Shown here: piece after piece, positions 21,093 to 62,973 of the stretch
Position numbering within the stretch: position 1 is the first letter of the stretch
Layout: every line of letters begins with the position of its first letter
Assembly: GCF_008727735.1 (NCBI RefSeq)
Contig: NZ_CP044227.1
Coordinates: 2,677,001-2,741,000 of the forward strand
From: Flintibacter sp. KGMB00164
Lineage (GTDB): Bacteria > Bacillota > Clostridia > Oscillospirales > Oscillospiraceae
Direction of reading: 5' to 3'
Length of the DNA: 64,000 nucleotides
Program-made: the position numbers and the translations under genes
The notes under the pieces: generated by a model
Seen by the model: the letters and a program-made list of their open reading frames with translations, nothing else
Databases searched by the model: none
Told to the model about the DNA's origin: nothing

Positions 21093-21132
21093 TGGCATGA
21101 TAGAATACCTTACAGAACAGGAGGTTTTGAAT

Positions 21133-22837: not shown

Positions 22838-22839
22838 AC

Positions 22840-23619: not shown

Positions 23620-23626
23620 TGATTTT

Positions 23627-24088
23627 ATGAAGAAAATAGTTTTAGCATTAACATTTGTCCTTGTGGGAAGTTTTATGCTTGCTGGCTGTTCAAAAGATGA
23701 AATTCTCAATCATTACAATAACATTGTTCAGTCTGCGGGCTCCATAGAACTGACAGGGAAATCGTCACTGCAAGGGGAAAAAGAAAAAGGAATTGATGAT
23801 TATACAGGGACTTATACAGCTGATTATGCGAACTTTTCAGGTACAGAGTATTTGTTCGGAGGAACTTCCATAAAGAGAGAAGCCGGTAAGGAGCTGTCCA
23901 TTGATTGCACCTTGGAGATTACGGAAGGTACTGCAAAAGTATTTTGGATTTCTGGAGCTGATGAAGCAGTCACGTTGATTGAAGCAACCGGAACTTATAG
24001 TGACACAATTACACTTCCTGATGGTGGAAATTATATCGGAATTGAATGCGAGAGTTTCACAGGAAGCATTGAATTAAATATTGAATAA
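23627..24088 (+). CDS. Putative lipoprotein in the ABC transporter operon
   Basis: 153 residues with a signal peptide and lipobox LAGC (Cys21). The mature part is beta-rich and acidic, unrelated to any family I can name. It is seven nt after permease 2, so probably expressed with it. By analogy with immunity lipoproteins such as NisI it could bind the peptide outside the membrane; this is inference from context. Confidence 0.75.
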   Translation: MKKIVLALTFVLVGSFMLAGCSKDEILNHYNNIVQSAGSIELTGKSSLQGEKEKGIDDYTGTYTADYANFSGTEYLFGGTSIKREAGKELSIDCTLEITEGTAKVFWISGADEAVTLIEATGTYSDTITLPDGGNYIGIECESFTGSIELNIE

Positions 24089-24098
24089 CATTCTGCCG

Positions 24099-24430
24099 GA
24101 CGACGGCAAAAGAAAAAAAGCCGTCGTAGAGCAGACAATTTGACACGCCCATTTGAAACGGCGGCTTTGATTTCAGAGCCGCCGTTTCTTTGCGTTTACA
24201 CAATCCTATGACGACTTGCAGGGACACGGTAGCCGATTGGAGGTTAATTTACCGTGTCCTTCTTCTTATTTCGCAGTATCCATGATCTGCACCAGTTAAA
24301 AAAAGCCTGTTCCCAGCAGCGGAGCAATGCGGTCAGAAGTATGCACTATACCATGTAACTAAACAGCAAAATATACTCTATTACGCTCGTATGGCTTTAT
24401 GCCGTCCGGGCGCTTTTTTGTCCCTATGGA
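24099..24430 (+). promoter_or_regulatory. Structured non-coding block before the sigma-like genes (nested element)
   Basis: Successive hairpins: ACGACGGC/GCCGTCGT with an A-rich loop (24100-24127); AAACGGCGGCT/AGCCGCCGTTT (24156-24187); GGACACGGTA/TACCGTGTCC followed by TTCTTCTT (24222-24268). Then AAAAAAAGCC (24298-24307), a 26-nt box at 24339-24364, and GC-rich sequence before TTTTTT (to 24420). An equivalent block lies at 54,662-54,980. No coding region seen in 24,089-24,531. Confidence 0.6.
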
Positions 24431-24531
24431 GCCGAAACATCGGGTCAGCATGGCCCGAACTTTATCCCCGGTGCCATTCCCCGCCGCTCCATTCAGATTT
24501 TCTCGAAAAAATCTGAATGGAGGAAAGGCAG

Positions 24532-24945
24532 ATGGAAGTTACCATCAATTATAACGGACAAGCTGTGGCCGTGGAGGTCACGCTGGAAGTCTATGAATTT
24601 CTTGACCTGGCCGATCACAAAACGGAGAACCTGTTCCATGAACAGCGGCGGCATTGGGATGGCCGGGAGTTTGACGAGTACATCATTACCACCGAGGGTG
24701 TAGGGGTCTACGGCGAAACGCCGGAGGAATACCTTTGCCGCATGGAAACGCTGCATGAGCTGATGGCTGTTCTGGACACCTGTACCGAGGCCCAGCGCCG
24801 CCGGTTCCTGCTCTATGCGCTTGACGGGCTGAGCCTTGCAGAGATCGGTGTGCTGTGCGGCTGCTCCAAAGTGGCTGTTTATCAAAGTGTGGAGGCGGTC
24901 AGAAAAAAATTTATAAATTTCTTTGAGAACAGGCTTAACGAATGA
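24532..24945 (+). CDS. Sigma-70 region 4-like protein
   Basis: 137 residues. The N-terminal ~85 residues are of unknown fold; the C-terminus holds a sigma region 4 / HTH ('RRRFLLYALDGLSLAEIGVLCGCSKVAVYQSVEAVRKKF'). It may redirect RNA polymerase or act as a regulator of transfer genes. The ATG at 24532 follows GGAGGAAAGG; a perfect hairpin (CAGATTTTCTCGAAAAAATCTG, 24,494-24,515 region) lies just before. First of three sigma-like genes in a row. Confidence 0.75.
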   Translation: MEVTINYNGQAVAVEVTLEVYEFLDLADHKTENLFHEQRRHWDGREFDEYIITTEGVGVYGETPEEYLCRMETLHELMAVLDTCTEAQRRRFLLYALDGLSLAEIGVLCGCSKVAVYQSVEAVRKKFINFFENRLNE

Positions 24946-25048
24946 CCTGTTTTCGGGCTACCAAGTGAAAGGGATCATTTCCCTTATCTCAGCGAAGGGC
25001 GGACAGCGGACGAGCTGCCCGCCTCTCCAATTTTCAGGAGGTAAGCCT

Positions 25049-25501
25049 ATGAAAACAATCAATCTGCGGTGGATGTATCCCCACTACCGGCATGACGAGT
25101 TTGTGGATGTTACGGACGAGGTATGGGCAGCGATGTATCAGGCCCAGCGGGAGATGGAGAACTATGAGCGTCGGAAAGTCTACCACCGCGCCTACTACTC
25201 TCTGGACGCATACAGCTGGCTGGAAAATTACGCACTGGAACACAGCAGATCGCCGGAAGATATTTTGCTGGAACGAGAAGAAATGACCACCCGCCTGCAC
25301 CTGATTGCAGCTCTGCCTGCGGCTCTGGCTCATGCCACTCCGACACAGGCCCGCCGTGTTCACGCCTACTACATTGCCGGTATCAAGCAGCCGGAAATCT
25401 CCCGGAGAGAGGGCATCCACAGCAGCAAGGTCAGCGTTGCCATCCGTCGAGGTCTGCGGAATATGCGCCGCTGCTATGATGGCCTTTTCCAAACAGAGTG
25501 A
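25049..25501 (+). CDS. Sigma-70-like factor, paralogue A
   Basis: 150 residues opening MKTINLRWMYPHYRHDEFVD and ending in a sigma region 4 HTH ('RRVHAYYIAGIKQPEISRREGIHSSKVSVAIRRGLRNMRR'). A central SPEDILLEREE segment is typical of these mobile-element sigma factors. AGGAGGTAAGCCT precedes the ATG. Paralogous to the next gene, with which it shares the MxTINL opening. Confidence 0.78.
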   Translation: MKTINLRWMYPHYRHDEFVDVTDEVWAAMYQAQREMENYERRKVYHRAYYSLDAYSWLENYALEHSRSPEDILLEREEMTTRLHLIAALPAALAHATPTQARRVHAYYIAGIKQPEISRREGIHSSKVSVAIRRGLRNMRRCYDGLFQTE

Positions 25502-25511
25502 GGGCATGCCT

Positions 25512-25973
25512 ATGCAGACCATCAATCTCAAACAATATTATCCATTTTGCAAAGAGGACATTTTTGTGGAGGTGTCCGATGAGATCGTCGAAGCGTTTCT
25601 TCTGGACAAGAGAGCCGAGGTCGCCAGAGATCGCAAGATGTTCCGGTATAAGGCGTTTTATTCCCTCGATTGTAACGATGGAATCGAAAATGCCGCCATC
25701 GGCTGGGCGCAGCCATCGCCGGAGGACTACCTGATAGAAAAAGAAGAATTAGCCGAATACGAAGAACTGATACAGCGATTGTACGAAGCCATTTCTTCCC
25801 TGCCGCCTATGCAGGCCCGCCGTGTCCACGCCCGCTATATGCTGGGTATGAAAGTGAAAGATATTGCCGCAATGGAGGGTATCACGCCATCACAGGCGGG
25901 AAAATCCATCCACGCTGCACTGCGAAGGCTGCGCCGGTACTTTGCGCGTCAGAAATGGACGGTCAATCTATGA
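25512..25973 (+). CDS. Sigma-70-like factor, paralogue B
   Basis: 153 residues, opening MQTINLKQYYPFCKEDIFVE, with 'SPEDYLIEKEELAEY' and a C-terminal HTH ('RRVHARYMLGMKVKDIAAMEGITPSQAGKSIHAALRRLRR'). The start at 25512 is chosen by alignment to paralogue A; an ATG at 25506 adds two residues. It lies 10 nt after paralogue A, in the same transcription unit. Confidence 0.78.
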   Translation: MQTINLKQYYPFCKEDIFVEVSDEIVEAFLLDKRAEVARDRKMFRYKAFYSLDCNDGIENAAIGWAQPSPEDYLIEKEELAEYEELIQRLYEAISSLPPMQARRVHARYMLGMKVKDIAAMEGITPSQAGKSIHAALRRLRRYFARQKWTVNL

Positions 25974-26001
25974 GCGTTTTCAAAGAAAAGAGGTGCATGA
26001 C

Positions 26002-26292
26002 ATGAACGAAAAAAATACAGCCCAAACCCAAAAAGAAGAACGGGAGGAAGTCCTGAAGGAGATCCGACAGCTTGAAAACCGCAAGAAGATTTTGGAGAAC
26101 AAGCAGCGGAACGAAGAACGCAGGGTTCGCACCCGCCGCCTGATTGAGCGCGGAGCCATTTTGGAGGGTATTTTTCCGCTGGCTTCCAACCTTTCCGGCG
26201 CAGAGGTCAAAGCATTTCTGATTGCCCTGTCCCATCTTCCGGGGGCTGCGGAATTGACTGCAAACCTGCCAAAATCCGGGGACACGCCATAA
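26002..26292 (+). CDS. DUF3847-like mobilization accessory protein
   Basis: 96 residues. An N-terminal coiled coil (residues ~8-50, Glu/Arg/Lys-rich) is followed by 'RLIERGAILEGIFPLASNLSGAEVKAFL', the pattern of the DUF3847 proteins found before MobA/MobL relaxases. Probably helps the relaxase at the adjacent oriT. AAAGAGGTGCATGAC precedes the ATG. Confidence 0.72.
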   Translation: MNEKNTAQTQKEEREEVLKEIRQLENRKKILENKQRNEERRVRTRRLIERGAILEGIFPLASNLSGAEVKAFLIALSHLPGAAELTANLPKSGDTP

Positions 26293-26306
26293 GTCCCTTG
26301 TTTACA

Positions 26307-26335
26307 AGGGCGCACTTATACACCGTTGCCGGTGT
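26307..26335 (-). other. MOBQ-type origin of transfer (oriT) with nic core
   Basis: The minus strand reads ACACCG-GCAA-CGGTGT (26335-26320), then TAAGTGCGCCCT (26318-26307). The dodecamer equals the nic core known from RSF1010/R1162 (IncQ) oriTs, and the inverted repeat sits directly 5' of it as in those plasmids. It lies 150 bp before the MobA/MobL gene. The remaining 26,336-26,488 is GC-rich with no gene. Confidence 0.85.
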
Positions 26336-26488
26336 CGTGCGCCCTGCCGGGGGCTGTTGCGCTCTCCGAGCGCGATGGGGCGCTACACTCCCCAAACCCC
26401 TTGTGCGCCCCGCGCAGCCAGACACCCGCTTCGCGTCTGTCCGGCTCCACGGAGCCTGAAATATCCCCGCCGAAAGGAGGTGCCACCC

Positions 26489-27925
26489 ATAGATTTTTGC
26501 CATATTCCCGTCAGTATCATCAAGCGCAGCGCAGGCCGTTCTGCTGTTGCCGCAGCTGCTTACCGCAGCGGAACCAAGCTGACAAATGAATGGGATGGAA
26601 TGACCCACGACTACACCCGGAAAGGCGGCATTGTCCATGCGGAGATCATGCTGCCTGCCCACGCCCCGCCAGAGTTTGCAGACCGCTCCACCCTCTGGAA
26701 CAGCGTGGAGCAAATCGAGAAAGCAAGGGACAGCCAGCTTGCCCGCGAGATCGAAGCAGCTCTGCCCCGCGAACTGTCCAGAGAACAGCAGCTTGCCCTT
26801 GTCCGGGCCTATGTGAAGGACAACTTTGTGGACAAGGGGATGTGCGCTGACTTCGCCATCCACGATAAGGGAACCGGCAACCCCCATGTTCATATCATGC
26901 TGACCGTCCGGCCCCTGAAAGAAAATGGCGCATGGGGCGCAAAGTGCCGCAAGGCATACGACCTGGACGAAAACGGCCAGCGTATCCCGGACGGGAAAGG
27001 CGGCTGGAAGAACCACCGGGAGGACACCACCGACTGGAACGACAAAGGGAATGTGGAGATTTGGCGGGCGGCATGGGCGGCCTGCACCAACCGGGCATTG
27101 GAGGCCGCCGGTCATCCCGCCCTGGTAGACCACCGCAGCTACAAGCGGCAGGGCATTGATAAGATCCCCTCTGTCCATCTGGGGCCAGCCGCCAGCCAAA
27201 TGGAAAAGCGCGGTATCCGCACAGACAAGGGAGAAGTAAACCGGCAGATCGCCGCCGACAACAAGCTGCTGAAAGAAATCAAAGCCCGCATTACCCGTCT
27301 TTATCGCTGGTCGAAAGCCGAAACGGAAAAACCACAAACACAGCAAAGCAGCTTGACAGCTTTGTGGGAGGCCCAGCAGCAGTTGAACGCTCCCCGCACC
27401 CGCACCGGAAAAATCCGGGCCTTGCAGGAAAGCGCTGCGCTGTTCAGCTTTTTGCAGGCAAACGGCATCCAGTCTATGCAGCAGCTTCATGAAAAAATCG
27501 CTGATATGAACAGCCGTTACTATGACCTGCGCGGAAAGATCGTCAAGGCCGAGCGCCGGATCACTACCCTTACCGAGCGCGGGGAGATGTGGGAACAGTA
27601 CAACCAGTACAAGTCCATCCACAAGCAGCTTGCCAAAGTAAAGCCCGAAAAACGGGAACAGTTTGAACAGCGCCACAGCCGGGAACTGATTCTGTATGAC
27701 GCAGCGGCCCGGTATCTGAAAGAATTGAAAGACAGCGACGAGGCAATCACCCCAAAGGCATGGCAGCTGGAAATTAACCAGCTGGCCGCTGGAAAGCAGA
27801 CGGACACGCTTGCCATGAAAGCCATGCGGGAGGATTTGAAAGCAGTGGAACGGCTCCGCAAAACCGCCGAGCAGCTGTCCAGACAGGAACGGGACAAGTC
27901 TCACGACCGGGAGCCGGAGCGGTAA
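26489..27925 (+). CDS. MobA/MobL-type relaxase (MOBQ)
   Basis: About 478 residues. The N-terminal relaxase domain has 'PVSIIKRSAGRSAVAAAAYRSG', the three-His motif in 'GNPHVHIMLTVRP' (with His also in 'AIHDKGTGN'), and the MobA/MobL fold; the C-terminal ~250 residues are coiled coil. It nicks the element at the oriT upstream and leads the strand into a recipient. Family members start MPIFHxxxSIIKRS; here the codon in that place, right after AAAGGAGGTGCCACCC, is ATA (26489). In-frame ATGs exist only at 26357 and 26375, in non-coding-looking sequence. Start uncertain. Confidence 0.85.
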   Translation: MDFCHIPVSIIKRSAGRSAVAAAAYRSGTKLTNEWDGMTHDYTRKGGIVHAEIMLPAHAPPEFADRSTLWNSVEQIEKARDSQLAREIEAALPRELSREQQLALVRAYVKDNFVDKGMCADFAIHDKGTGNPHVHIMLTVRPLKENGAWGAKCRKAYDLDENGQRIPDGKGGWKNHREDTTDWNDKGNVEIWRAAWAACTNRALEAAGHPALVDHRSYKRQGIDKIPSVHLGPAASQMEKRGIRTDKGEVNRQIAADNKLLKEIKARITRLYRWSKAETEKPQTQQSSLTALWEAQQQLNAPRTRTGKIRALQESAALFSFLQANGIQSMQQLHEKIADMNSRYYDLRGKIVKAERRITTLTERGEMWEQYNQYKSIHKQLAKVKPEKREQFEQRHSRELILYDAAARYLKELKDSDEAITPKAWQLEINQLAAGKQTDTLAMKAMREDLKAVERLRKTAEQLSRQERDKSHDREPER

Positions 27926-27991
27926 GGGCTACCGCGTTTTGGCGTACCCCTTTTAGGTGCGTCGCGTTTCACGACACCCTTTTGCGCACAG

Positions 27992-28024
27992 AAAAACCGC
28001 CGTACAGGTTTCCCCATACGGCGG
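27992..28024 (-). terminator. Terminator of the toxin-antitoxin operon
   Basis: Minus strand CCGCCGTA / TACGGCGG followed by TTTTTC. Confidence 0.75.
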
Positions 28025-28032
28025 CAGTCGGT

Positions 28033-28323
28033 TTATTTGCCGAACAAGTCGCTGTGTGTGCCGGTGCGGGCCAGCGTCAGCACCAGAACATCATCTTCTA
28101 TGCGGTAGACAAGCAGCCAGTCCGGGAGAATGTGACATTCCCGATGGCCTGCCCAATCGCCGGACAGGTCATGGTCACGGTTCTTATCCGGCAGCGGTTC
28201 GCCCATCGCCAGCAACGCTACGACCTGCTCCAGCAGTTCGATCTTCAAGCCACGCTTGATGGCTCGTTTGTAGTCTTTTTTGAAACTGGTCGTGTACTTG
28301 ACGGTATATTTGGTTTCTTTCAT
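28033..28323 (-). CDS. yafQ: YafQ-type mRNA interferase toxin
   Basis: A 96-residue RelE/YafQ superfamily toxin: 'YTTSFKKDYKRAIKRG', 'DHDLSGDWAGHRECHILPDWLLVYR' and a terminal 'THSDLFGK', in which the conserved His and Phe of the YafQ active site are present. It would cleave mRNA on the ribosome when free of antitoxin. The start overlaps the antitoxin stop by 4 nt (ATGA). Probably stabilises the nested element. Confidence 0.9.
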   Translation of the reverse strand: MKETKYTVKYTTSFKKDYKRAIKRGLKIELLEQVVALLAMGEPLPDKNRDHDLSGDWAGHRECHILPDWLLVYRIEDDVLVLTLARTGTHSDLFGK

Positions 28324-28598
28324 CTTTTCAGGTCAGCAAACAACTCGTCAAGGTCATTGTAGCCCTTTACAGACGGGTCTTTTGCAATCCTTTCCGCTTC
28401 CAGCATGGCAGCAACCGTTTCTTTGTTCGGCTGTTCCAGCCTTACTTCAAAGGGAATGCCGCCTTCACGAAGAGACTGGCGCACAAAGATGTTAAACGCC
28501 GTAGTCAGGTTCATGCCAAGTTCAGTAAACAGTGCGTCCGCCTGCGCTTTCAAATCTGCGTCCATGCGGATACTGATGTTTGTGGTATTTCCAGCCAT
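28320..28598 (-). CDS. RelB/DinJ-family antitoxin
   Basis: A 92-residue antitoxin with an N-terminal ribbon-helix-helix ('NISIRMDADLKAQADALFTELGMNLTTAFNIFVRQ') and an acidic C-terminal segment that would wrap the toxin ('YNDLDELFADLK'). It starts the operon; AAAGGGG lies eight nt before the ATG at 28598. Direct repeats upstream are likely its operators. Confidence 0.9.
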   Translation of the reverse strand: MAGNTTNISIRMDADLKAQADALFTELGMNLTTAFNIFVRQSLREGGIPFEVRLEQPNKETVAAMLEAERIAKDPSVKGYNDLDELFADLKR

Positions 28599-28622
28599 AC
28601 GATCAACCCCTTTCTGCTGGCA

Positions 28623-28669
28623 ATTATAGTATATGCCATTTGCACGAAGAAAACAATACTTTGCACGAA
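28623..28669 (-). promoter_or_regulatory. Promoter and operator repeats of the toxin-antitoxin operon
   Basis: Minus strand TATAAT (28623-28628), with two direct copies of TTTGCACGAA (plus strand 28639-28648 and 28660-28669), 21 bp apart, i.e. two helical turns, covering the -35 region. This suits autorepression by the RHH antitoxin. Confidence 0.6.
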
Positions 28670-28724
28670 TATTTAATAATAAATTCATTTGAGGAGGTTA
28701 CCGGCTTTATGAAAGAAATCATTT

Positions 28725-29123
28725 ATGAAGAACAATAAGTCTGAACCTATCCCCGTCATGGATTACCGCCAGTACCGCAGAGTGCGGAGGCTGGTGCATG
28801 AGTGCTGTAACTACATCGACGGAAACTGTATCGCCCTGGACGATGGGGAGGAATGTGTCTGTGTCCAGTCTATTTCCTACTCCCTGTTGTGCAGGTGGTT
28901 TCGGGTGGCGGTATTGCCGCAGGATAAGGAACTGGAAACGGCGCTGTTCCACCGGCTGAATGCTAAGAAATGCTCCGTATGCGGGGCGCTGTTTACCTCC
29001 GGTTCCAACCGAGCCAAATACTGCCCGGAATGTGCCGCACGCATGAAGCGGATCAACGCCGCAAAGCGCAAGCGGAAACAACGGGAGAAATGTCACGCTT
29101 TAGGGGCTGAAAAACCCTTGTAA
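28725..29123 (+). CDS. Cysteine-rich VLP-domain protein
   Basis: 132 residues with two Cys clusters: CCNYIDGNCIALDDGEECVC (residues ~27-46) and a zinc-ribbon-like 'CSVCGALFTSGSNRAKYCPECAARMKR' (~83-109), then a basic tail. Known as 'cysteine-rich VLP' proteins of clostridial mobile elements; function unknown, but the zinc-ribbon and basic tail suggest nucleic-acid binding. A strong ribosome site (GAGGAGG) 30 nt upstream instead serves a 9-codon frame overlapping this start, so translation may be coupled. Confidence 0.78.
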   Translation: MKNNKSEPIPVMDYRQYRRVRRLVHECCNYIDGNCIALDDGEECVCVQSISYSLLCRWFRVAVLPQDKELETALFHRLNAKKCSVCGALFTSGSNRAKYCPECAARMKRINAAKRKRKQREKCHALGAEKPL

Positions 29124-29236
29124 ATCAAGGATTTTTTCGAGGGTGTCAAAGGCAGGCTGATAGATTTATCCTCCGACCCCTAAAACGGCCTTAAAATGCG
29201 TACAGAATCCCAAGAGAACCCCCAAGGAGGAACCCT

Positions 29237-29971
29237 ATGTCAGACAACCGAAAATATTATTACCTGAAACTCAAAGAAAACTATTTTGACGATGATTCCA
29301 TCGTGCTGCTGGAAAGTATGCAGGATGGTGTGCTGTATTCCAACATTCTGCTCAAGCTGTATCTGAAATCGCTGAAACATGGTGGACGGCTCCAGCTTGA
29401 CGAGGACATTCCTTACACGGCGCAGATGATCGCCACCATTACCCGCCAGCAGATCGGCACTGTGGAGAGAGCCTTGCAGATCTTTTTGAAGCTGGGTCTT
29501 GTGGAAGTGCTGGAGAGCGGCACATTCTACATGAGCAACATCGAACTTTTAATCGGCCAGTCCTCTACCGAGGCTGAGCGAAAGCGGGCTGCAAGGCTCC
29601 AAAATAAGGCGCTTTCTGCGCCCCGGACAAACGGCGGACATTTGTCCGACATTCGTCCACCAGAGATAGAGATAGAGTTAGAGAAAGAGATAGAGATAAA
29701 GAGAGAGATAGAGAAGGGACACCCCGCCCGCGCCTATGGCCGTTACCAGAATGTTTTCCTGACGGACGGGGAACTGGCAGACTTGCAGGCCAGCTTTCCT
29801 GCTGTATGGGAACAGTACATCGAAAAACTGTCCGAGTACATGGCTTCTACCGGCAAGCGTTATCAGAGCCATGCAGCGACCATCCGGCGCTGGGCCGGTG
29901 AGGACGCGAAGAAAGCAGCCCCGCCCTCTCGCAACCGGGATTACAGCGTAAAGGAGGATGAAACCGTATGA
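29237..29971 (+). CDS. Replisome organiser N-terminal domain protein
   Basis: 244 residues. The N-terminal ~120 residues match the phage replisome organiser N-terminal winged-helix domain ('YYYLKLKENYFDDDSIVLLESMQDG'). A Glu/Ile-rich charged linker (residues ~143-160) is encoded by GAGATA-type repeats; the C-terminal ~80 residues are helical, DnaD-like. With the DnaC-like gene that overlaps it by 4 nt, it would load the host helicase on the excised element. Confidence 0.82.
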   Translation: MSDNRKYYYLKLKENYFDDDSIVLLESMQDGVLYSNILLKLYLKSLKHGGRLQLDEDIPYTAQMIATITRQQIGTVERALQIFLKLGLVEVLESGTFYMSNIELLIGQSSTEAERKRAARLQNKALSAPRTNGGHLSDIRPPEIEIELEKEIEIKREIEKGHPARAYGRYQNVFLTDGELADLQASFPAVWEQYIEKLSEYMASTGKRYQSHAATIRRWAGEDAKKAAPPSRNRDYSVKEDETV

Positions 29972-30831
29972 TTGAGATTACCGCAGAAATCCGGGCGCTG
30001 ATCGACAAGGCAGCCGCCGGTGTGGAACTGGCCGGGGACGAGTACATAGACCCGGCAGACGGCCTCATTCACTGTAAGAAGTGCGGCGGCCAGAGGCAGA
30101 CCGTTGTGCCATGCTTTGGGAAATCCGGCTACTTTATGCCGCGCTGCATCTGCCAGTGCCAGCAGGAGGCTGAGGAGCAGCGCAAGGCTGCTGAAGAACG
30201 GCAGCGCCGCATGGAGCGTATCAAACGCCGAAAGGCACAGGGCTTGCAAGACCGTTATCTGTATGACTACACATTTTCCAATGATAACGGGCAAAACCCA
30301 TTGATGGACAAGGCTCACGCCTATGTGGAGAACTGGAAAGAGGCATATAAGAGCAATATCGGGCTTTTGCTATTTGGAGATGTGGGAACCGGCAAGTCTT
30401 TTTTCGCCGGATGTATTGCCAATGCTTTGCTTGACCGGGATGTGCCGGTGCTGATGACGAACTTTCCCACCATCCTGAACCGCCTGACCGGGATGTTCTC
30501 CGAAGACAGGTCGGAGTTTATTGCCAGCTTTGACGAGTATGACCTGCTTATCATTGACGATCTGGGAGTAGAGCGCAGTACCGAATATGCTATGGAGCAG
30601 ATGTTTTTCGTCATTGACAGCCGCTACCGCAGCCGCAGGCCCATGATCATCACCACCAACCTGAAGCTGGCCGAACTCAAAAACCCGCCTGACCTGTCCC
30701 ACGCCCGTATCTATGACCGTATTTTGGAACGGTGTGCGCCGATCCTCTTTGACGGGAAGAATTTCCGGGAAGAAAATGCCGGTGCTACCCGACAGACAGC
30801 AAAAGACATTGTAAGCAGTAAGCAAGACTGA
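29968..30831 (+). CDS. DnaC/IstB-like helicase-loader ATPase
   Basis: A 287-residue AAA+ protein: an N-terminal Cys pair region (CKKCGGQRQTVVPCFGKSGYFMPRC cut by charged residues), Walker A GDVGTGKSFF (residues ~136-145), Walker B 'LLIIDDLGVERS', and 'IITTNLKLAEL' with an Arg finger near 'IYDRILERC'. This is the DnaC/DnaI type helicase loader rather than a transposase helper, since no IS21 transposase is present. Start overlaps the replisome-organiser stop (ATGA). Confidence 0.87.
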   Translation: MIEITAEIRALIDKAAAGVELAGDEYIDPADGLIHCKKCGGQRQTVVPCFGKSGYFMPRCICQCQQEAEEQRKAAEERQRRMERIKRRKAQGLQDRYLYDYTFSNDNGQNPLMDKAHAYVENWKEAYKSNIGLLLFGDVGTGKSFFAGCIANALLDRDVPVLMTNFPTILNRLTGMFSEDRSEFIASFDEYDLLIIDDLGVERSTEYAMEQMFFVIDSRYRSRRPMIITTNLKLAELKNPPDLSHARIYDRILERCAPILFDGKNFREENAGATRQTAKDIVSSKQD

Positions 30832-30873
30832 TTTTTTACCGGCGGCACAGACCCGTTTGGAGAAAGGAGCGCC

Positions 30874-31068
30874 ATGAACAAAGAACCCCATACTATGCAG
30901 GTGGCAGACGCCGTTACTGCGTCCAGAGCGCCGGAAAACACGCCAGCGATGGTAAAGAAAATCGGCAAGACAACCTACAAGGTTCATGTCCATTTCAGCC
31001 AGACCAGCACAGAAACCATGAGCGATAAAATCAAGCGTATGCTCAAAAATGAAATTCAGCAGATGTGA
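30874..31068 (+). CDS. tnpW: TnpW-like transposon protein
   Basis: A 64-residue protein with the TnpW signature 'KKIGKTTYKVHVHFSQTSTETMSDKIKRMLKNE'. TnpW is a small conserved protein of Tn4451-type elements with no assigned role. GAAAGGAGCGCC precedes the ATG. Its presence together with TnpV and a large serine recombinase supports assignment of the nested element to that group. Confidence 0.85.
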   Translation: MNKEPHTMQVADAVTASRAPENTPAMVKKIGKTTYKVHVHFSQTSTETMSDKIKRMLKNEIQQM

Positions 31069-31145
31069 CAGACTGATAAACGAAGCCGCCTTGTGCTAAA
31101 CTGATAATGGTACGCACCAAAATTTTTGTCAAGGAGGACACGAAA

Positions 31146-31511
31146 ATGCTTTACACAGAAAAAGAGAAGCATGAAATTGAACGAGTAAAGGAGGTCTTTG
31201 CGGAACATCTGCGGCAAAGCCCTGATTTTGAACTGCTCTGGTCGGACAAGGTAGGCTATGTCTGGCTGGCGATTGGCGTCAATTCGCTTTATGTGGATAC
31301 TGGCATTAGGATAGAATCAGCTGCTGATCTCTGCGGCAGGTGTTTGGATGATGTTGCTACGGATGTTTTATATATGACAGGCAACGATCATGCACTGGAG
31401 AAAGCCGATCCGCTGGAATTGGCGGAAATCAAGCGGCGCTGGGAGCCATATATCAACCAGCTGCCAGACTATGCGTATCTCTGCAAAGACCTGCTGAACG
31501 GAAAAATGTAA
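31146..31511 (+). CDS. Hypothetical protein near the right end of the nested element
   Basis: 121 residues, acidic, mostly helical, not recognised. It contains 'EVFAEHLRQSPDFELLWSDKVGYVWLAI' and ends 'YLCKDLLNGKM'. The ATG at 31146 follows AAGGAGGACACG. It is the last gene before the terminator and right junction. Similar small proteins follow TnpW in related elements, as far as I recall; no function can be given. Confidence 0.65.
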   Translation: MLYTEKEKHEIERVKEVFAEHLRQSPDFELLWSDKVGYVWLAIGVNSLYVDTGIRIESAADLCGRCLDDVATDVLYMTGNDHALEKADPLELAEIKRRWEPYINQLPDYAYLCKDLLNGKM

Positions 31512-31522
31512 TCTGTCAAACG

Positions 31523-31561
31523 AGGTGTCAGGAGCCATACGGTGCTTCTGGCACCTTTTTT
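31523..31561 (+). terminator. Terminator at the right end of the nested element
   Basis: AGGTG.CAGGAGC / G..CTTCTG.CACCT followed by TTTTTT. It separates the element from the traG remainder. Confidence 0.7.
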
Positions 31562-31600
31562 GTGAATTTGATTAAAAAGTCCTTGACAATTTGTCTCTGG

Positions 31601-32447
31601 CAAGACCCTGAAATCCATCCTCATTAGCTGCGGTGCTCGCCTTGCCCCCTTCGATATTGCGGAGCTGCGGGAGATCATGTCCGATGACGAACTGGAGCTG
31701 GATACCCTGGGCGACCGGAAAACGGCGCTTTTCCTCATTATGAGCGACACGGACACGACCTTCAATTTCGTCATTGCCATGCTGCAAAGCCAGCTATTCA
31801 ATCTCCTGTGCGACAAGGCGGACGACGTGTACGGCGGCAGGCTGCCTGTTCATGTGCGGTGCCTCCTGGACGAGTTCGCCAACATCGGGCAGATACCCAA
31901 CTTCGACAAGCTGATCGCCACCATCCGGAGCCGGGAAATCTCGGCTTCTATTATTTTGCAGTCCCAAAGCCAGTTAAAGACCATCTACAAGGATGCCGCA
32001 GATACCATTGTGGGCAACTGCGACGCCACCTTGTTTTTGGGAGGCAAGGAGAAATCCACCCTGAAAGAAATCTCGGAGCTGCTGGGCAAGGAGACCATCG
32101 ACAGCTTCAATCAATCCGAGAACCGGGGCAGCCAGGTTTCTCACGGCCTCAACTATCAGAAATTAGGAAAGGAGCTGATGACCCAGGACGAGATCGCGGT
32201 GATGGACGGAGGCAAGTGTATTTTGCAGCTGCGAGGGGTGCGGCCATTTTTCAGCGACAAGTTTGATATAACGAAGCACCCCCGCTACAAGTACCTTGCC
32301 GACGCCGACAAGAAAAACACCTTTGACATTGAACGGTACATGAAACGCAGACCGGCCATTGTGAAGCCGGACGAGCCTTTCGATCTGTACGAATTGAAAG
32401 CCACCGATCTTCAACCCGACAATTCAACTGAACGAAAGGAAATGTGA
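31601..32447 (+). pseudogene. traG: traG (VirD4-type coupling protein), 3' part, interrupted
   Basis: C-terminal ~281 residues of TraG starting 'KTLKSILISCGARLAPFDI', which continues exactly where the 5' part ends. It carries Walker B 'LLDEFANIG', the 'ASIILQSQSQLKTIY' sensor region and 'FLGGKEKSTLKEIS'. An internal ATG at 31677 could give a shorter peptide but without Walker A. It no longer has a promoter or ribosome site of its own in the right place, so coupling function should be lost until the insert leaves. Confidence 0.92.
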
Positions 32448-46580: not shown

Positions 46581-47666
46581 ATGCCAGCAGTGGATTATGC
46601 TGAAGCTAGACGTGTTTTAAACGAGACTTTTTCCGAAACTCTGCAGCAATGCTCTCCTACAACAATGGAACTGCTAGAAAGATACGAGGATGCGCTAGAC
46701 ATTGTGTTTGAATCGAAAACACAATCTTATAGAGAGGTCTTGTTGGGGTGTGCACTGGTACACATTATTAACCCAACGGTAAACATCCGTTTGCCATATG
46801 TAAAACAAGGTCCCACTGCATTTAATGGAAGGACGCTTGATGAACAAGTAATAAATCCGTTTTTGATGTCTAAGCAAATACCTTGCTCCAAAGGACCTTA
46901 TTTGGCAACTTTTCGGCGGAATGTTAGACTGGATGAATCCACCCGCTCAGGACTTCGTGACCAACATGGATATGATGCTATGCTAATTGTATTGAGTGCG
47001 ATTGAAGCTGCGGATAATGAAAATGACAAAAAGGCATTTCTTTCTTGCCTGCTTAAGAGGTTTATCATTCTTCGCGAGAAGTCAAATATCCAGTTGTCTG
47101 GAATTGCAAGAATGAGTGTGGAACAGTATCAAGTATTTTTGAATACTCTCCTGCATAATCAAAGTGGTGGTCTTTTACCTATGTTAGTTACCATAGCAGT
47201 ATTTCAAACCATTAACGATCAGTATTGCTGTGGGTGGGATATCAACTATCAAGGTATAAATGCTGCAGATGGCGCCACTGGTGCTCCAGGAGACATTACC
47301 ATTTTTAGAAATGGACAGATTGTTAAGGCTATTGAGGTTACTGAACGGCCAATAAGTGAGACGCGAGTTGTCACCACATTTAATACAAAAATTGCTATTA
47401 ACGATGTAAAAGATTACCTTTTTGTCTATACGGCCACTTCCCCTGAGGACGGAGCATACAGCGTTGCTAAAGTGTATTTCGCTCAAGGATATGACATTAA
47501 CTTTATTAAGCTGAGTAATTTTGTCCTTTCAACATTTATTGCAGGAAATATAGAAACACGGCAGAGGTTTACGGACCATATGCTAACGCTTCTTCGACAG
47601 GATAATGTCCCTGCAGCAGTAAAAACCGCGTGGAATGATTCTCTTCAAGAAGTAATTGGAGCATAA
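46581..47666 (+). CDS. Type II restriction endonuclease, possibly SacI family
   Basis: A 361-residue protein between a C protein and a convergent m5C methyltransferase, so almost certainly the endonuclease. A PD-(D/E)xK-like core is visible: 'APGDITIFRNGQ' with Asp238, then 'AIEVTE' with Glu252-Val-Thr254, so Thr stands where Lys is usual. The length and the 'FNGRTLDEQVINPFL...SKGPYLATFRRNV' segment recall the SacI family (GAGCTC), but this is from memory and not certain. AT-rich relative to the transfer genes. AATGGAGGAAT precedes the ATG. Confidence 0.72.
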   Translation: MPAVDYAEARRVLNETFSETLQQCSPTTMELLERYEDALDIVFESKTQSYREVLLGCALVHIINPTVNIRLPYVKQGPTAFNGRTLDEQVINPFLMSKQIPCSKGPYLATFRRNVRLDESTRSGLRDQHGYDAMLIVLSAIEAADNENDKKAFLSCLLKRFIILREKSNIQLSGIARMSVEQYQVFLNTLLHNQSGGLLPMLVTIAVFQTINDQYCCGWDINYQGINAADGATGAPGDITIFRNGQIVKAIEVTERPISETRVVTTFNTKIAINDVKDYLFVYTATSPEDGAYSVAKVYFAQGYDINFIKLSNFVLSTFIAGNIETRQRFTDHMLTLLRQDNVPAAVKTAWNDSLQEVIGA

Positions 47667-47668
47667 AA

Positions 47669-47705
47669 ACAAATGGCCAGTTGGATTGTCCAACCGGCCA
47701 TTTGT
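47669..47705. terminator. Bidirectional terminator between nuclease and methyltransferase
   Basis: ACAAATGGCC..TTGGA / TCCAA..GGCCATTTGT; the T-run lies on the plus side (TTTGTTTATTT), with A/T-rich sequence also on the other. Confidence 0.75.
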
Positions 47706-48761
47706 TTATTTGATTTGGCTTTCTAACTCGATAACTGTTTCTGCAACACATTGGGCCAAATTGCACGGAACAGCATTTCCAATTTGTCGATAGATGGATG
47801 ACTTTCCCCCTAGAAATATATAATCTGGAGGAAAAGTCTGTATTGCAGCAGCTTCCTTAATTGTAAGACGTCGCAAGAAAGAGGGCACCGATACTTCTTG
47901 ATTTAGAGAATTATTTACCAAAGATTCATGGTATTTTTCAACCCAATTTTCAGCAGAAGGATCATGGAGTAACCTTTCATCTACAATAGGGGTCTTGTTT
48001 CCGCCCATTGAGGCAGGCAATGTATTAGCCTGCCCTTCAAAATCGAGAGGTCTTCCCATTCCGTTGAAAAGCATCCCTGCATATGGGGATTTTCTAATAA
48101 CTGGATTTGTGGCCAAAGAGATTTTCGCTGTACAAGAAAGCGGATTTTCGGGAGTTCCTGCAACACCAACACTTAGAAGGCAATCTCTTAATGTCAATCT
48201 TGGTTTCTTTTTGCTTTCAATAATAGAATCAAAAGCATTCTCGATGTTAATATTACTGCTACGTACTCCAATAAAAAAGACGCGTTCTCTTTTTTGTGGA
48301 ACTCCAAAATCAGCAGCATTCAATATTCTGCTAAAGCAGTAATACCCTAATTCTTTTGCACGATCAAAAATTTTATTTCGTACCTGTTTCCAGCGAGCCA
48401 GTTCACCAAGAGCTTTGACATTCTCCATCACAAAAAACTGGGGAGATACCATCTCAACGACATCAAAAAATTCCCAGATCATTGTGCTGCGTTCATCGGT
48501 TGGATCCATTTTTCCTGCCACCGAAAAGCCTTGACATGGGGGGCCACCAAATACCAATTGAATATCTTTACTACTATATTTATAGAGGTCTTTCTTTGCC
48601 TCTCGAATATCAGCATGTTCCACATAGGTATGTGGGTGATTTGCTCTATACGTTTCTACGGCATCAGAATTAAACTCGTTCGCCCAAAGTATGGATACAC
48701 CAGCCCTTTCAAAACCGATATCCATTCCCCCGGCACCCGAAAAAAGAGATATTGCGTTCAC
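47706..48761 (-). CDS. DNA (cytosine-5) methyltransferase of the restriction system
   Basis: A 351-residue m5C methyltransferase with motif I 'SLFSGAGGMDIGFE', catalytic motif IV 'GGPPCQGFSVAGK' (Cys ~77), motif VI 'FVMENVKAL', motif VIII 'QKRERVFFIG', a target-recognition region ('KSPYAGMLFNGMGRPLDFEGQANTL'), and motifs IX-X 'RRLTIKEAAAIQTFPPDY' / 'RQIGNAVP'. It protects host DNA at the site cut by the adjacent nuclease. GTG start with GAGGTGATGAT upstream. Intact, unlike the methyltransferase at 36,696. Confidence 0.92.
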   Translation of the reverse strand: MNAISLFSGAGGMDIGFERAGVSILWANEFNSDAVETYRANHPHTYVEHADIREAKKDLYKYSSKDIQLVFGGPPCQGFSVAGKMDPTDERSTMIWEFFDVVEMVSPQFFVMENVKALGELARWKQVRNKIFDRAKELGYYCFSRILNAADFGVPQKRERVFFIGVRSSNINIENAFDSIIESKKKPRLTLRDCLLSVGVAGTPENPLSCTAKISLATNPVIRKSPYAGMLFNGMGRPLDFEGQANTLPASMGGNKTPIVDERLLHDPSAENWVEKYHESLVNNSLNQEVSVPSFLRRLTIKEAAAIQTFPPDYIFLGGKSSIYRQIGNAVPCNLAQCVAETVIELESQIK

Positions 48762-55800: not shown

Positions 55801-56328
55801 TCCTTTCAGCCCTGGCAGAAGGCAAGCGACTTACCCTTTCCACCTTTGCCGATGCCGGGGACTGACCCCACCTTGACAAAGAAAGCCTTCGGGCAGCATA
55901 AGGCAGACGGATACGATCTGTCTGTGTGGAGCCGGTCGGCCGGTGCGCCATGACCCTGTTGCAAGTCCGCAGGACGGGACCCCTACCAAACAGGCGAGCG
56001 ACAAAACCAGGCCGCGAAACAGGTGTGGCAGCCTGTGGGCGAGGATGCACAGACAGGATAATGAGACTCCCGCGTTGAACGCCCTCAAAGCATTGCGCGG
56101 CGCACCCATCAGTATGGGCCGGGGTGAGATTCCCGTGGAGCTGTAGCCAGCAGCCATCCGTTTTTTGCCTCTTTAATTTTCAGATAAATCTTCTGCTTTT
56201 CTGTTTACGGATAATTCGTAAACTTTCCATTAGCAGCAGACAAACCCGAAAGGGCGCGGTACAATGAGGGTGGAAGTTATGAATGAACACCTCATTGCGT
56301 GCCGTTTCTGACTGGAAAGGAGGCTGCT
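55801..56328. other. Decayed 530-bp gap before xis
   Basis: No complete gene. Short coding-like fragments on the plus strand: 'RDAHLILSALAEGKRLTLSTFADAGD' split by the frame near 55,790-55,865, and 'DNETPALNALKALRGAPIS' to 56,146. They look like remnants of deleted reading frames. 56,160-56,328 is AT-richer leader of xis and includes one more ATTAGCAG (56,230 region). Confidence 0.45.
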
Positions 56329-56556: not shown

Positions 56557-57966
56557 ATGGCATCCATTATCAAAAGAAAGAAAAACTATTCCATCGTCTA
56601 CACCTATGTGGACGAGAACGGCGAGACCAAGCAGAAGTGGGAGACCCGCTCCAGCTATCAGGACGCATTGAAGCGCAAGGCGGAGGTGGAGAATCAGAAA
56701 ACCACCCGGTCTTTTCTCCCGCCCAGCAATCAAAGCATCTCGGAGTTTCTGCTGGACTTCGTCTCCCTCTACGGCGAAAAGCGGTGGGGGGTGTCCATGT
56801 ATGACAGCCAAAACTCCCTGATCGCTAACTACATCAACCCCATCATCGGGGATATGAAAGTGCAGGACATCACGCCCCGAGTGGTGGACAAGTACATCCA
56901 AACCTTGCAGAAAACCCCTGCGGTGAACACCAAGAACCACCATGCCAAAACGGAGTTCGTGACCAACGCCACCATTGACAAGATTATTAAACTCCTCCGC
57001 TGCGCTTTCAAGCAGGCGGTCCGATGGGAGCTGGTTCCAAAGAACCCCTTCGATAATGTGATCCTGCCCAAAGTGGAACATAAAAAGCGGGACATCTGGA
57101 CTGCCGATATGATCCGCACCGCACTGGATCAGTGTACGGACGGAAAACTCTATGTGGCGATGAATCTGGCCTTTGCTTGTTCCATGCGCATGGGCGAGAT
57201 CATGGGCCTGACCTGGAGCAATGTCCACATCTCCGATGAAGAAATTGCTGCCGACAACGCCTATGTCTATATCGACAAGGAGCTGGCGAGGGCCTCCAAG
57301 CGGGCCATTGAGATGCTGGGGCACAGGGATGTTTACTATGTGTTCCCGCCCTTGTTTGCCAACACCAGCACCCGGATCATCCTGAAGAAGCCCAAGACCG
57401 ACTCCAGCATCCGCAAAGTGTGGCTGCCCAAGACCCTGGCCTACATTCTGCTGGAATGGAAGAAGTCCCAGGACGAGCTGAAAGAGATGCTCCGGGACGA
57501 GTATCAGGACTACGACCTGGTGGTGGCGCTGCCCAACGGGCGACCCTGTGAGGACCGGGTGCTCCTGAAGGAGTTTGAAAAGCTGCGGGAGAAGGCGGGG
57601 CTGCCTAAAGTGGTCTTTCACTCTCTCCGCCATTCCAGCACCACCTACAAGCTGAAACTCAACCACGGCGACCTGAAGGCCACCCAGGGCGACACGGGCC
57701 ACGCCCAGATTGACATGATCACCAGCGTGTATGCCCACATTCTGGACGAGGACCGGAAAGTGAACGCCCAGAAGTTCGAGGACGCCTTCTACGCCAGCGC
57801 CAATCCCGACCTGCGGACGGTGCGCCCTCCGGCAAAAACCAGGGGACCGAAGGAGCCGGAGAGCGTGTCGCTGGACCTGGAGGCCCTGGTGGAACAGCTC
57901 CGCAAGTCGCCGGAACTGGCCAACACACTGGCCGCATTGCTGGCGTCGGCCCCATCCGGAAAATAG
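56557..57966 (+). CDS. int: Tyrosine integrase of the ICE
   Basis: A 469-residue tyrosine recombinase: N-terminal arm-binding domain (~1-55), SAM-like core-binding domain (~60-160), and catalytic domain with Arg211 (SMRMGEIMG), Lys near 280, His355-x-x-Arg358 (HSLRHSS), His382 and nucleophile Tyr392 (SVYAHI). A ~70-residue C-terminal extension follows. It recombines the CTCCTAA core in the tRNA-Arg anticodon loop. It lies about 320 bp from the right core, with three arm repeats in between. Confidence 0.95.
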   Translation: MASIIKRKKNYSIVYTYVDENGETKQKWETRSSYQDALKRKAEVENQKTTRSFLPPSNQSISEFLLDFVSLYGEKRWGVSMYDSQNSLIANYINPIIGDMKVQDITPRVVDKYIQTLQKTPAVNTKNHHAKTEFVTNATIDKIIKLLRCAFKQAVRWELVPKNPFDNVILPKVEHKKRDIWTADMIRTALDQCTDGKLYVAMNLAFACSMRMGEIMGLTWSNVHISDEEIAADNAYVYIDKELARASKRAIEMLGHRDVYYVFPPLFANTSTRIILKKPKTDSSIRKVWLPKTLAYILLEWKKSQDELKEMLRDEYQDYDLVVALPNGRPCEDRVLLKEFEKLREKAGLPKVVFHSLRHSSTTYKLKLNHGDLKATQGDTGHAQIDMITSVYAHILDEDRKVNAQKFEDAFYASANPDLRTVRPPAKTRGPKEPESVSLDLEALVEQLRKSPELANTLAALLASAPSGK

Positions 57967-58108: not shown

Positions 58109-58150
58109 AAAAAACCGCTGTAAACCATCAGAAAACGGCTTACAGCGGTC
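58109..58150 (-). terminator. Terminator of the element-borne tRNA
   Basis: Minus strand ACCGCTGTAA / TTTACAGCGGT then TTTTT, immediately downstream of the tRNA CCA end. Confidence 0.88.
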
Positions 58151-58155
58151 ATTTT

Positions 58156-58232
58156 TGGCACCCCCGGCGAGACTCGAACTCACTACATTCCGCTTAGGAG
58201 GCGGACCCTCTATCCTGGTGAGGTACGGGGGC
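58156..58232 (-). tRNA. tRNA-Arg(CCU), complete copy carried by the ICE
   Basis: 77 nt with encoded CCA. Acceptor GCCCCCG/CGGGGGT, D stem CCTC/GAGG, anticodon stem TCCGC/GCGGA around loop CTCCTAA (anticodon CCT), T stem GTGAG/CTCGC with loop TTCGAGT. It lies inside the element, 54 bp from the right core. It differs in sequence from the interrupted host tRNA-Arg(CCU) except for the anticodon loop and general features, so it is not a simple duplication. It reads AGG codons and would replace the broken gene. Confidence 0.93.
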
Positions 58233-58286
58233 ATATACAGAAATTATTCAGTTATACAAGGCTCGGGGATTCGAACGGTTCGATTG

Positions 58287-58293
58287 TTAGGAG
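58287..58293. repeat. Right attachment core
   Basis: TTAGGAG, identical to the left core at 10259-10265. Confidence 0.85.
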
Positions 58294-58325
58294 GGGCGCG
58301 CTCTATCCTATTGAGCTACTGGCGC
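58287..58325 (-). tRNA. 5' half of the split chromosomal tRNA-Arg(CCU)
   Basis: The minus strand reads GCGCCAG TA GCTC AATAGGATA GAGC G CGCCC and CTCCTAA (58325 to 58287), then element sequence that does not pair with the anticodon or acceptor stems. It pairs perfectly with the 3' half at 10,221-10,265. Its promoter is intact, so the transcript would run through this half into the element-borne tRNA. Confidence 0.9.
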
Positions 58326-58353
58326 ATATTCAGTTAGGCGATACAGCCCCTCT

Positions 58354-58382
58354 ATTGTAGCCCACCGCCGGAAAACTGTCAA
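58354..58382 (-). promoter_or_regulatory. Promoter of the split tRNA-Arg gene
   Basis: Minus strand TTGACA (58377-58382), 17-bp spacer, TACAAT (58354-58359), 28 nt before the tRNA 5' end. It reads towards the element-borne tRNA with no terminator between. Confidence 0.88.
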
Positions 58383-58492
58383 CGGGAAAGCTGTCCCGCT
58401 CCGTTTGTCCTGTGCTGACGGCCATTCGTCCAAAATCGGTAGACGGAGAAGAAGCTCTCGTCTATACTAAAGCCAAGAAAGGGGGCGAAGGG

Positions 58493-58954
58493 ATGCAGGT
58501 GGAAGTGAAGCTGGACCCGGAGCGCAAGGAGATCGGGATCGTGGTGCTGGCGCCCGCTCCCTCGCCGGAGCTGGACGAGCTGGTGCGGCGGCTGGAGGCG
58601 GAACAGCTCTCCCCCCTGCGGGCCTGGCGGGAGGACACCATGACCCTGCTACCCCAGAGCCAACTGGTGCGCTGCTACGCCCAGGACAAGCGGGTGTATG
58701 CCACGGTGGACGGCGGGGCGGTCTATCTGCTGCGGGAGCGGCTGTATGAGCTGGAGGAGCAGCTGGACCGGGGAAAATTTGTGCGCATCTCCAACGGAGA
58801 GATCATCAATCTGGACAAGGTGACGGCGGTGGATCTGTCCCTCACCGGCACCATCCGCATGACCCTGGGAGAGGCAGGATACGCCTATGTGTCCCGGCGG
58901 TATGTGAAGAAAATCAAAGAGACCTTACAGCTGGAGAGGAGGCGGACACGATGA
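58493..58954 (+). CDS. LytTR-domain transcription regulator
   Basis: 153 residues. A short N-terminal region, then a LytTR DNA-binding domain (residues ~55-148): 'LLPQSQLVRCYAQDKRVYATVDGG', 'RERLYELEEQLDRGKFVRISNGEIINLDKV'. There is no receiver domain. LytTR proteins paired with DUF3021 form a small regulator/membrane-inhibitor system in Firmicutes. The ATG at 58493 follows AAGGGGGCGAAGG. Overlaps the next gene by 4 nt. Confidence 0.88.
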   Translation: MQVEVKLDPERKEIGIVVLAPAPSPELDELVRRLEAEQLSPLRAWREDTMTLLPQSQLVRCYAQDKRVYATVDGGAVYLLRERLYELEEQLDRGKFVRISNGEIINLDKVTAVDLSLTGTIRMTLGEAGYAYVSRRYVKKIKETLQLERRRTR

Positions 58955-62768: not shown

Positions 62769-62791
62769 CGGACGCACAACAGCACGTCCAC

Positions 62792-62867
62792 ATCCCTACG
62801 GCGGCATGATCCGCATCAGGTTTCTGGGTCGAAGCCGAACTTCCTCTCAGCGCTCGCGCGCTCCCCA
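62792..62867 (-). promoter_or_regulatory. TPP riboswitch (THI element)
   Basis: The minus strand shows the conserved THI-box elements in order: GGGGAGC, GCTGAGAGGAAG, GACCC, GAACCTGA-like AAACCTGATGCGGATCATGCCG and CGTAGGGA. It precedes thiW-thiM-thiE. When TPP binds, transcription should stop at the following terminator. Confidence 0.95.
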
Positions 62868-62973
62868 TTGTATTTTCCGTCCGAAGAATGTCCCGGCCTT
62901 GGCTGGGACGGGTTTATTATCCACCCCCCGCCCCTCTTTGTCAATCCCCATTTGAAGGGCAGGGAGGTGATGC

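Follow-up and report, generated by a model that had tools for sequence, protein, structure and literature searches.

We find that a conjugative element of about 48 kb has broken the tRNA-Arg(CCU) gene of its host in the anticodon loop and carries, just inside its right end, a complete tRNA-Arg(CCU) of different sequence. The explanation that we favor, and hold to be very probable as a whole, is a gene swap by an element tRNA without a promoter, in which each delivered tRNA is both the repair and the landing site of the next element. According to this explanation, a tyrosine integrase would act on a 7-bp core and recombine it with the tRNA-Arg(CCU) anticodon loop, and the integration would cut the host gene and rebuild nothing. 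The element's own complete but promoter-less tRNA-Arg(CCU) would then lie directly inside the right end, where transcription from the host tRNA promoter would cross the dead 5' half and a short leader before reaching it. The new tRNA shares this anticodon loop and would so be a target for the next element, which would cut and replace it again. The elements would therefore nest, with the 5' halves piling up between the promoter and the current tRNA and the 3' halves at the left ends in the reverse, mirrored order. An element that brings a whole gene would also be free from having to match the acceptor and anticodon stems of its recipient. The more general proposal, that families of conjugative elements in gut Clostridia serially take over one tRNA gene behind a captured host promoter and so renew their own landing site, we consider likely.

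The features on which the analysis is built are given below in the numbering of the window, which is the whole 64-kb stretch of DNA that was analysed.

8,686-10,095 (+): host gene at the left flank, which we take to be asnS (asparaginyl-tRNA synthetase) from its C-terminal motif; it adjoins the uninterrupted tRNA in locus L115
10,221-10,258 (-): displaced 3' half of the host tRNA, with a terminator-like hairpin next to it at 10,190-10,217
10,259-10,265 (-): attL core CTCCTAA, from the sequence and the joined-halves test
10,266-58,286 (no strand assigned): integrated element of about 48 kb with conjugation genes, from profile matches in the window's open reading frames
56,557-57,966 (+): tyrosine integrase of the element (Pfam Phage_integrase, 8.9e-15)
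58,115-58,148 (-): hairpin followed by a T run, terminator-like in sequence, 3' of the element tRNA
58,156-58,232 (-): intact element-borne tRNA-Arg(CCU) (ARAGORN; Rfam tRNA, 53.8 bits)
58,233-58,286 (-): element leader of 54 bp between the broken half and the element tRNA; within it, by sequence, the T-arm-like GTTCGAATC (-)
58,271-58,283: palindrome TCGAACcGTTCGA, a few bases inside the right end, seen in the sequence
58,287-58,293 (-): attR core CTCCTAA, the anticodon loop, from the sequence and the joined-halves test
58,294-58,325 (-): 5' half of the host tRNA-Arg(CCU), pairing 12/12 with the 3' half at 10,221-10,258
58,354-58,382 (-): host tRNA promoter TTGACA-17-TACAAT, now facing the element, from the sequence and the homologous promoter in genome G042 (L115)
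58,412-58,954 (+): host LytTR-domain gene at the right flank, 91% identical in L115, where it stands beside the uninterrupted tRNA

We begin with the two junctions. ARAGORN finds one intact tRNA in the 64-kb window, the tRNA-Arg(cct) at 58,156-58,232(-). An earlier note on this DNA had read the stretches 58,287-58,325 and 10,221-10,265 as the halves of a full tRNA-Arg(CCU), and this is borne out: when the flanks are joined by script, ARAGORN recognizes a perfect 77-nt tRNA-Arg(cct) with the acceptor, D, anticodon and T stems all present, and the two halves pair at 12/12 positions (7 acceptor and 5 anticodon-stem pairs, G-U allowed). The 7-bp core CTCCTAA common to both ends coincides exactly with the anticodon loop, as had been claimed. 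Searched by itself with ARAGORN, the left junction contains no tRNA, and the right junction contains nothing but the element's own intact tRNA and no hybrid tRNA. Since neither junction holds a tRNA beyond the element's own, the host gene is destroyed without being rebuilt, in agreement with the earlier reading. The same holds for the intact tRNA-Arg(CCU) of different sequence, which lies 54 bp within the element in the same orientation and is followed by a terminator-like hairpin. The element thus has the features of tRNA-dependent integration, namely an attB in a tRNA gene, a short core, a whole tRNA of the same isotype and a tyrosine integrase, while the attP fragment that restores the split gene in a conventional tDNA island is missing from it.

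Judged by its genes, the element is an integrative and conjugative element of about 48 kb, with an integrase, a relaxase, a coupling protein and type IV secretion genes between its ends. The integrase gene abuts the right end, and the other matches include a relaxase, parts of VirD4, a TrbL/VirB6-like protein, a TraG-type P-loop ATPase, NlpC/P60, a CD1107-like protein, a topoisomerase and ArdA. Among the 30 open reading frames of the window that were scanned, no phage structural family is found, one phage-type replication family (Phage_rep_org_N) is present, and the conjugation genes argue against a temperate phage as the carrier. The VirD4 gene appears split, with positions 96-207 of the T4SS-DNA_transf profile in 14,972-16,012 and positions 247-442 in 31,677-32,447, as if a mobilizable element sits within the conjugative one, and because of this split the present copy may not transfer unaided. 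Two attP patterns designed for the excised circle match nothing in viral_contigs, which is a weak test for a conjugative element. Other features seen in the window are a large serine recombinase, a MobA/MobL relaxase and replication genes between the VirD4 parts (14,972-32,447), a SacI-type restriction endonuclease adjoining a cytosine methyltransferase (46,581-48,761), an Rfam pemK RNA (RF02913, 45 bits) at 56,058-56,138 near the integrase, and a TPP riboswitch (Rfam) in the host flank at 62,775-62,877.

We turn our attention to how widely the arrangement occurs. In the genus, a CCU-type tRNA pattern has 59 matches in 42 of 64 genomes, and the reversed control pattern has 8. Two of the 59 (G004 contig C32 and G062) look like chance matches by eye, and the 57 remaining sites were examined; at least one broken 5' half is found at these sites in 19/64 genomes, a twentieth genome (G001) being excluded as its half (L079) looks false by eye. 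At the level of the family, 40/400 genomes and 26/106 genera have a core that precedes an intact CCU tRNA by the spacing seen in the element, with a pattern that covers core spacings of about 87-117 bp and misses shorter types (82-83 bp); its reversed control has no match in the 400 family genomes. These matches fall in 41 places, and a recognizable broken half is present in 28 of the 30 loci examined, which include the window's own and that of G006. At the level of the class, 9/391 genomes match, of which G000 (the genome of the window) and G083 are in the family and 7 outside it; in three of these 7 (G690, G840 and G626) the core appears by eye to be a chance TCCTAA in the promoter region. 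The earlier note had treated the swap as a single case. The swap itself stands, but its scale was underestimated, as it repeats and nests across the family and beyond.

The same picture is obtained from the integrase. We scanned named genomes with an alignment of the integrase, confirmed at least 558 relatives and retained the best 80 loci, which include loci in Angelakisella, Faecalibacterium, Gemmiger, Anaerotruncus, Coprococcus, Lactonifactor and [Clostridium] asparagiforme. Among these best 80 of at least 558, a complete tRNA-Arg(CCU) lies beside the integrase in 64, 149-263 bp past it and on the opposite strand, and in 49 of those 64 the intact tRNA is preceded by a stack of 1-4 broken 5' halves. 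The other 16 of the 80 have no adjacent tRNA: in 11 a lone core occupies this place, as though the tRNA too had been split, and 5 have none. Two of these 5 end at a contig edge, and one of the 5 (L250) has an intact CCU tRNA about 1.75 kb on. The element tRNAs come in more than one shape. A second shape of 75 nt with a short D arm is seen beside related integrases (L204, L244, L246, L248, L253, L258), and two loci (L090, L113) have an element tRNA-Arg(CCU) of 76 nt with an aberrant D arm (TAGCGTAGTGGATAACGCG). The displaced 3' halves of five loci (L261, L264, L270, L271, L272) end in ATTG, GCTG or GGGC, without CCA, unlike the element tRNAs of A3, which encode CCA; a swap can therefore also change how the end of the tRNA is made.

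In some stacked loci no related integrase is beside the tRNA, and ParA/ParB-like genes are there instead. Within the genus, a ParA-like gene is near 7/18 stacked CCU tRNAs versus 1/20 unstacked ones, and the sole unstacked case (L091) has a leader that looks element-like by eye; the genes lie 0.8-3.4 kb after the tRNA (L082, L091, L094, L107, L108, L120, L126, L130). This concentration at stacked sites makes the ParA/ParB-like genes look like element genes, and the same counts disfavor their being host genes. In three loci (L079, L083, L131) a related integrase is within about 0.5 kb of the left-end core. Perhaps there is a second build of the element, with ParA/ParB-like genes at the tRNA and the integrase at the far end.

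The next question is whether elements have indeed entered the tRNAs of their predecessors. The clearest case is the genome G029, in which the order is 5'H, 5'w, intact tRNA, then 3'w, 3't, 3'H (H host, w window-type), a mirror order over 232 kb. In detail, we find first the host 5' half, a window-type leader, a window-type 5' half, a second leader and an intact third tRNA, the last with its own integrase (48% to that of the window). The 3' half of the window-type tRNA lies 75 kb on, beside the integrase of that element (88%); a window-type left end at 281,464 is joined to the 3' half of another tRNA, and a further left end at 393,924 carries the host 3' half, followed by asnS (93%). Both 5'H/3'H and 5'w/3'w pair 12/12. 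Two levels are thus bracketed as nesting predicts. For the outermost element, the tRNA has no 5' half, and no relative of the window's integrase is found in its segment.

Pairing of the halves can be examined more generally. In a test that covers loci from 49 genomes rather than whole genomes, and that includes the doubtful half of G001 (L079), 13/18 displaced 3' halves have a 12/12 partner among the broken 5' halves of the genome they come from, and 5/18 find no partner there at 11/12 or better. As a control, 43 of 252 comparisons across genomes reach at least 11/12, so the pairing of the halves is not due to chance. Left ends of the window type occur joined to 3' halves that come from four different tRNAs (those of the window, L103, L110 and L266), from which it follows that the stems need not match; a wider range of hosts would be the benefit. 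In G006 (contig C1), a displaced 3' half at 148,668 and the intact stacked tRNA at 709,193 are 560 kb apart on opposite strands, as if an inversion followed the integration.

Plain nesting is not the whole story, however, because G456 has five stacked 5' halves and, by pattern, one displaced 3' half, 53 kb from the intact tRNA, an imbalance which means that elements must also be lost or displaced. A newcomer could enter the tRNA of a resident, whose body would then be deleted between the left-end cores, leaving its 5' half behind; each site would mostly hold one element together with a ledger of earlier ones. Such displacement is suggested by G456 and by the two or more halves present at several loci. 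It is opposed by G029, where three left ends are still nested in order and two have a matching integrase. Moreover, decayed 3' halves could go undetected by the pattern, and few contigs are long enough to contain both ends. We give an even chance to the view that stacks arise mainly by displacement, which would add to the serial swap rather than replace it.

We next consider where the promoter of the element tRNA lies. We scored the leaders of 100 stacked loci, a set that includes loci picked by their stack pattern, against the promoter consensus. The best scores are 6-9/12, not above those of shuffled leaders, and none of the 100 reaches 10/12. In the 110 bp before the first half, a score of 11-12/12 is obtained in 45 of 99 stretches, which are longer than the leaders and to which the shuffle control, made on leaders only, does not extend. 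The remaining 54/99 score below 11, and among them are the four-half loci L192 (none measured) and L212 (7). For the window, the leader scores 7/12, at the shuffle level, and the upstream host stretch 11/12. Judged by sequence, the element tRNA of the window has no promoter of its own, such as the one found in the phage Fionnbharth. A few leaders may hold one; that of L108, for example, has a TATAAT with a poor -35. The consensus-like promoter before the first half in 45/99 loci and the promoter-less leaders fit the capture of a host promoter. Of the earlier claim that the host promoter reads straight into the element tRNA, the conserved promoter and the leader without one are supported by sequence, and the read-through transcription itself we infer. 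A captured promoter would make expression of the tRNA conditional on integration.

The leaders themselves are diverse, as the 86 distinct ones fall into at least 40 families. The T-arm motif GTTCRANTC is found in 8 of 40 leader families, where 0.03 would be expected by shuffling. Most simply, the leaders can be read as eroded 3' halves, in which case the elements would descend from conventional, gene-restoring ones; alternatively, the motif may serve integrase binding. The palindrome TCGAACcGTTCGA could be an integrase or repressor site.

One may ask whether the broken halves and leaders are fossils at all, or whether they form a functional regulatory leader, for instance with pseudo-tRNA processing signals. 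The halves do keep their D arm, although this is partly built in because the search regex requires one, and the T-arm-like motif of the 8/40 families could be seen in the same light. A regulatory leader is nevertheless hard to reconcile with halves that number from 0 to 5, with cores of which some have decayed (CGCCTAA, CTCTTAA, CTCCGAA) and with leaders that split into at least 40 families, and we regard it as improbable.

An ordinary tRNA-targeting element is even less likely, to the point that we give it very little weight. Such an element would restore the split gene with a 3' fragment, and the intact tRNA nearby would be incidental cargo. In the part of PMC4383910 available, the anticodon loop counts as a standard site at which tyrosine integrases insert their elements, and the T-arm motif in 8/40 leader families indicates that the ancestors were probably of the ordinary type. 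But neither junction makes a hybrid tRNA, for which reason restoration of the host gene by a 3' half is rejected, and the tRNA stands at a fixed place beside the integrase in 64/80 loci (the best 80 of at least 558).

The uninterrupted site is provided by a congener, G042 (L115), which is another species of the genus and not another strain. There asnS (96%), one intact tRNA-Arg(CCU) and the LytTR gene of the right flank (91%) are neighbors. The acceptor stem of this tRNA is identical to that of the reconstructed host gene, the promoter before it is closely similar to the host promoter of the window, and the CCU pattern has this one match in the G042 genome, with no second CCU tRNA. The site supports the whole-gene swap with an element-borne replacement as the earlier note had proposed it; the relatives compared yielded no empty site that lacks the reconstructed tRNA or keeps the tRNA of 58,156-58,232 as its own. 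The window-type tRNA, leader and integrase also occur together in other genera. The idea that the second tRNA is chromosomal, the element having entered one of a pre-existing tandem CCU pair, draws on the closeness and common orientation of the two genes and can be dismissed as hardly credible, since the intact tRNA lies between the two cores, the congener has one CCU tRNA at its uninterrupted site, and the same tRNA, leader and integrase are found together in other genera.

With the swap by an element-borne tRNA as the preferred reading, we consider what it means for the host. The genome-wide count of CCU-reading tRNA-Arg genes that the earlier note had called for was carried out by three methods (the CCU pattern, Rfam with ARAGORN, and a covariance model), and each finds the element gene alone in the 2.92-Mb genome. 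The CCU pattern matches two places, the displaced 3' half and the element tRNA. The Rfam tRNA model gives 50 genes, and ARAGORN, run on their stretches, assigns one to CCU (that of the element) and one to Arg(UCU). A covariance model made from 53 CCU tRNAs, with 150 of 1172 first-look candidates scored, has 42 matches, of which 41 are listed genes and the other is the broken left site. The list of 50 genes for this genome (G000) is without tRNA-Trp and tRNA-Asn, which is probably a miss of the search, so that the Rfam/ARAGORN search has missed some genes and the list is incomplete. Codon use was counted in 137 long ORFs, which were chosen by a mechanical rule from 13 sampled stretches of the genome. 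AGG makes up 158 of 62,232 codons in them, or 5.3% of the Arg codons, and is used in 58 of the ORFs. AGG can possibly be read by tRNA-Arg(UCU) through wobble.

The earlier note had called the element addictive. In its favor, the element has the sole CCU tRNA found; against it, an element that excises cleanly would leave a restored host gene behind, and tRNA-Arg(UCU) might take over part of the reading of AGG. As site-specific excision should rejoin the host halves, the cell would be deprived of the tRNA only if element DNA were lost in some way other than excision, and the addiction is thus conditional and weaker than claimed.

The element tRNA looks functional from its cloverleaf, and it is presumably made and charged. 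In 53 distinct intact CCU tRNAs, mostly element-borne and taken from 62 distinct 77-nt sequences (74 distinct in all), 99.6% of the stem cells are paired and 15 of 21 pairs show double changes. Four of five measures of covariation beat shuffles, and the fifth, "further pair types", does not (164 of 500). The tRNA also follows its integrase, if only for a while. Where the integrases are at least 95% identical, the element tRNAs are 96.8% identical versus 84.7% for the adjoining broken halves (84 pairs, 49 loci). The corresponding values are 77.5% and 81.7% for integrases at 85-95% (234 pairs), 71.7% and 79.2% at 70-85% (768 pairs), and 69.5% and 75.4% below 70% (90 pairs). Below 95% integrase identity the element tRNAs thus resemble each other no better than the broken halves do, so integrase and tRNA travel together over short times only.

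If this explanation is true, mobile DNA has in effect taken charge of a core gene of translation, and horizontal replacement of that gene keeps recurring. An element would deliver the target of its own successor, making the tRNA gene a docking site that can be renewed, and past elements would be logged, readably and in order, in the stacked dead 5' halves. It would give a possible reason for the very different tRNA-Arg(CCU) sequences among the species of one genus, and it would extend tRNA-dependent integration from phages to conjugative elements. It also predicts that large families of elements escape those island finders that rely on a match between a tRNA and a fragment of itself. Islander, for one, uses BLASTN to find the fragment that belongs to a given tRNA gene, as far as the part of PMC4383910 available describes it; because the intact tRNA here differs from the fragment, it would be expected to miss such elements.

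The nearest known system is the tRNA-dependent lysogeny of actinobacteriophages, described for Fionnbharth, LeBron, Gaia and others (Guerrero-Bustamante and Hatfull 2024, PMC10865867, from the portions of that paper available), and the principle is the same. The window element and the actinophages have in common a tyrosine integrase, an attB in a tRNA gene, a short core (8-17 bp in the actinophages, 7 bp in the window), a tRNA that is not rebuilt and a whole tRNA of the same isotype; in Gaia the tRNA also adjoins the integrase gene, as it does here (PMC10865867). They differ in the carriers, which are phages there (PMC10865867) and, by the genes, conjugative here. The tRNA of Fionnbharth overlaps another gene and has a promoter shown with a reporter, whereas the tRNA of the window is directly inside attR and has no recognizable promoter. 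A single prophage, Lj965 of Lactobacillus johnsonii, is cited in the same source (PMC10865867), where it is reported to leave the tRNA unrestored and to carry a cognate tRNA, in which it resembles the window element. Nesting, stacked halves and the element tRNA as the next target, all seen here, have no description in the portions of PMC10865867 available, and the open-access literature, a scope that excludes most subscription papers and preprints, yields no description of conjugative carriers, promoter capture or serial nesting. Relative to tRNA-dependent lysogeny, then, the conjugative carrier, the tRNA without a recognizable promoter of its own and the tRNA as the next target are the features not described in the literature found.

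Conventional tDNA islands and integrative and conjugative elements, as they appear in the available part of PMC4383910, share with the window element a tyrosine integrase, the anticodon-loop class of crossover and a displaced 3' fragment at the far end. They restore the gene with a matching fragment, which the window element does not. Several elements also pile up in tandem arrays, by accretion at a shared attachment site (PMC4383910, same part), as they do here. In contrast to such arrays, each newcomer at the tRNA-Arg(CCU) site would enter the gene that its predecessor delivered, and the result is brackets within brackets and a stack of tRNA halves.
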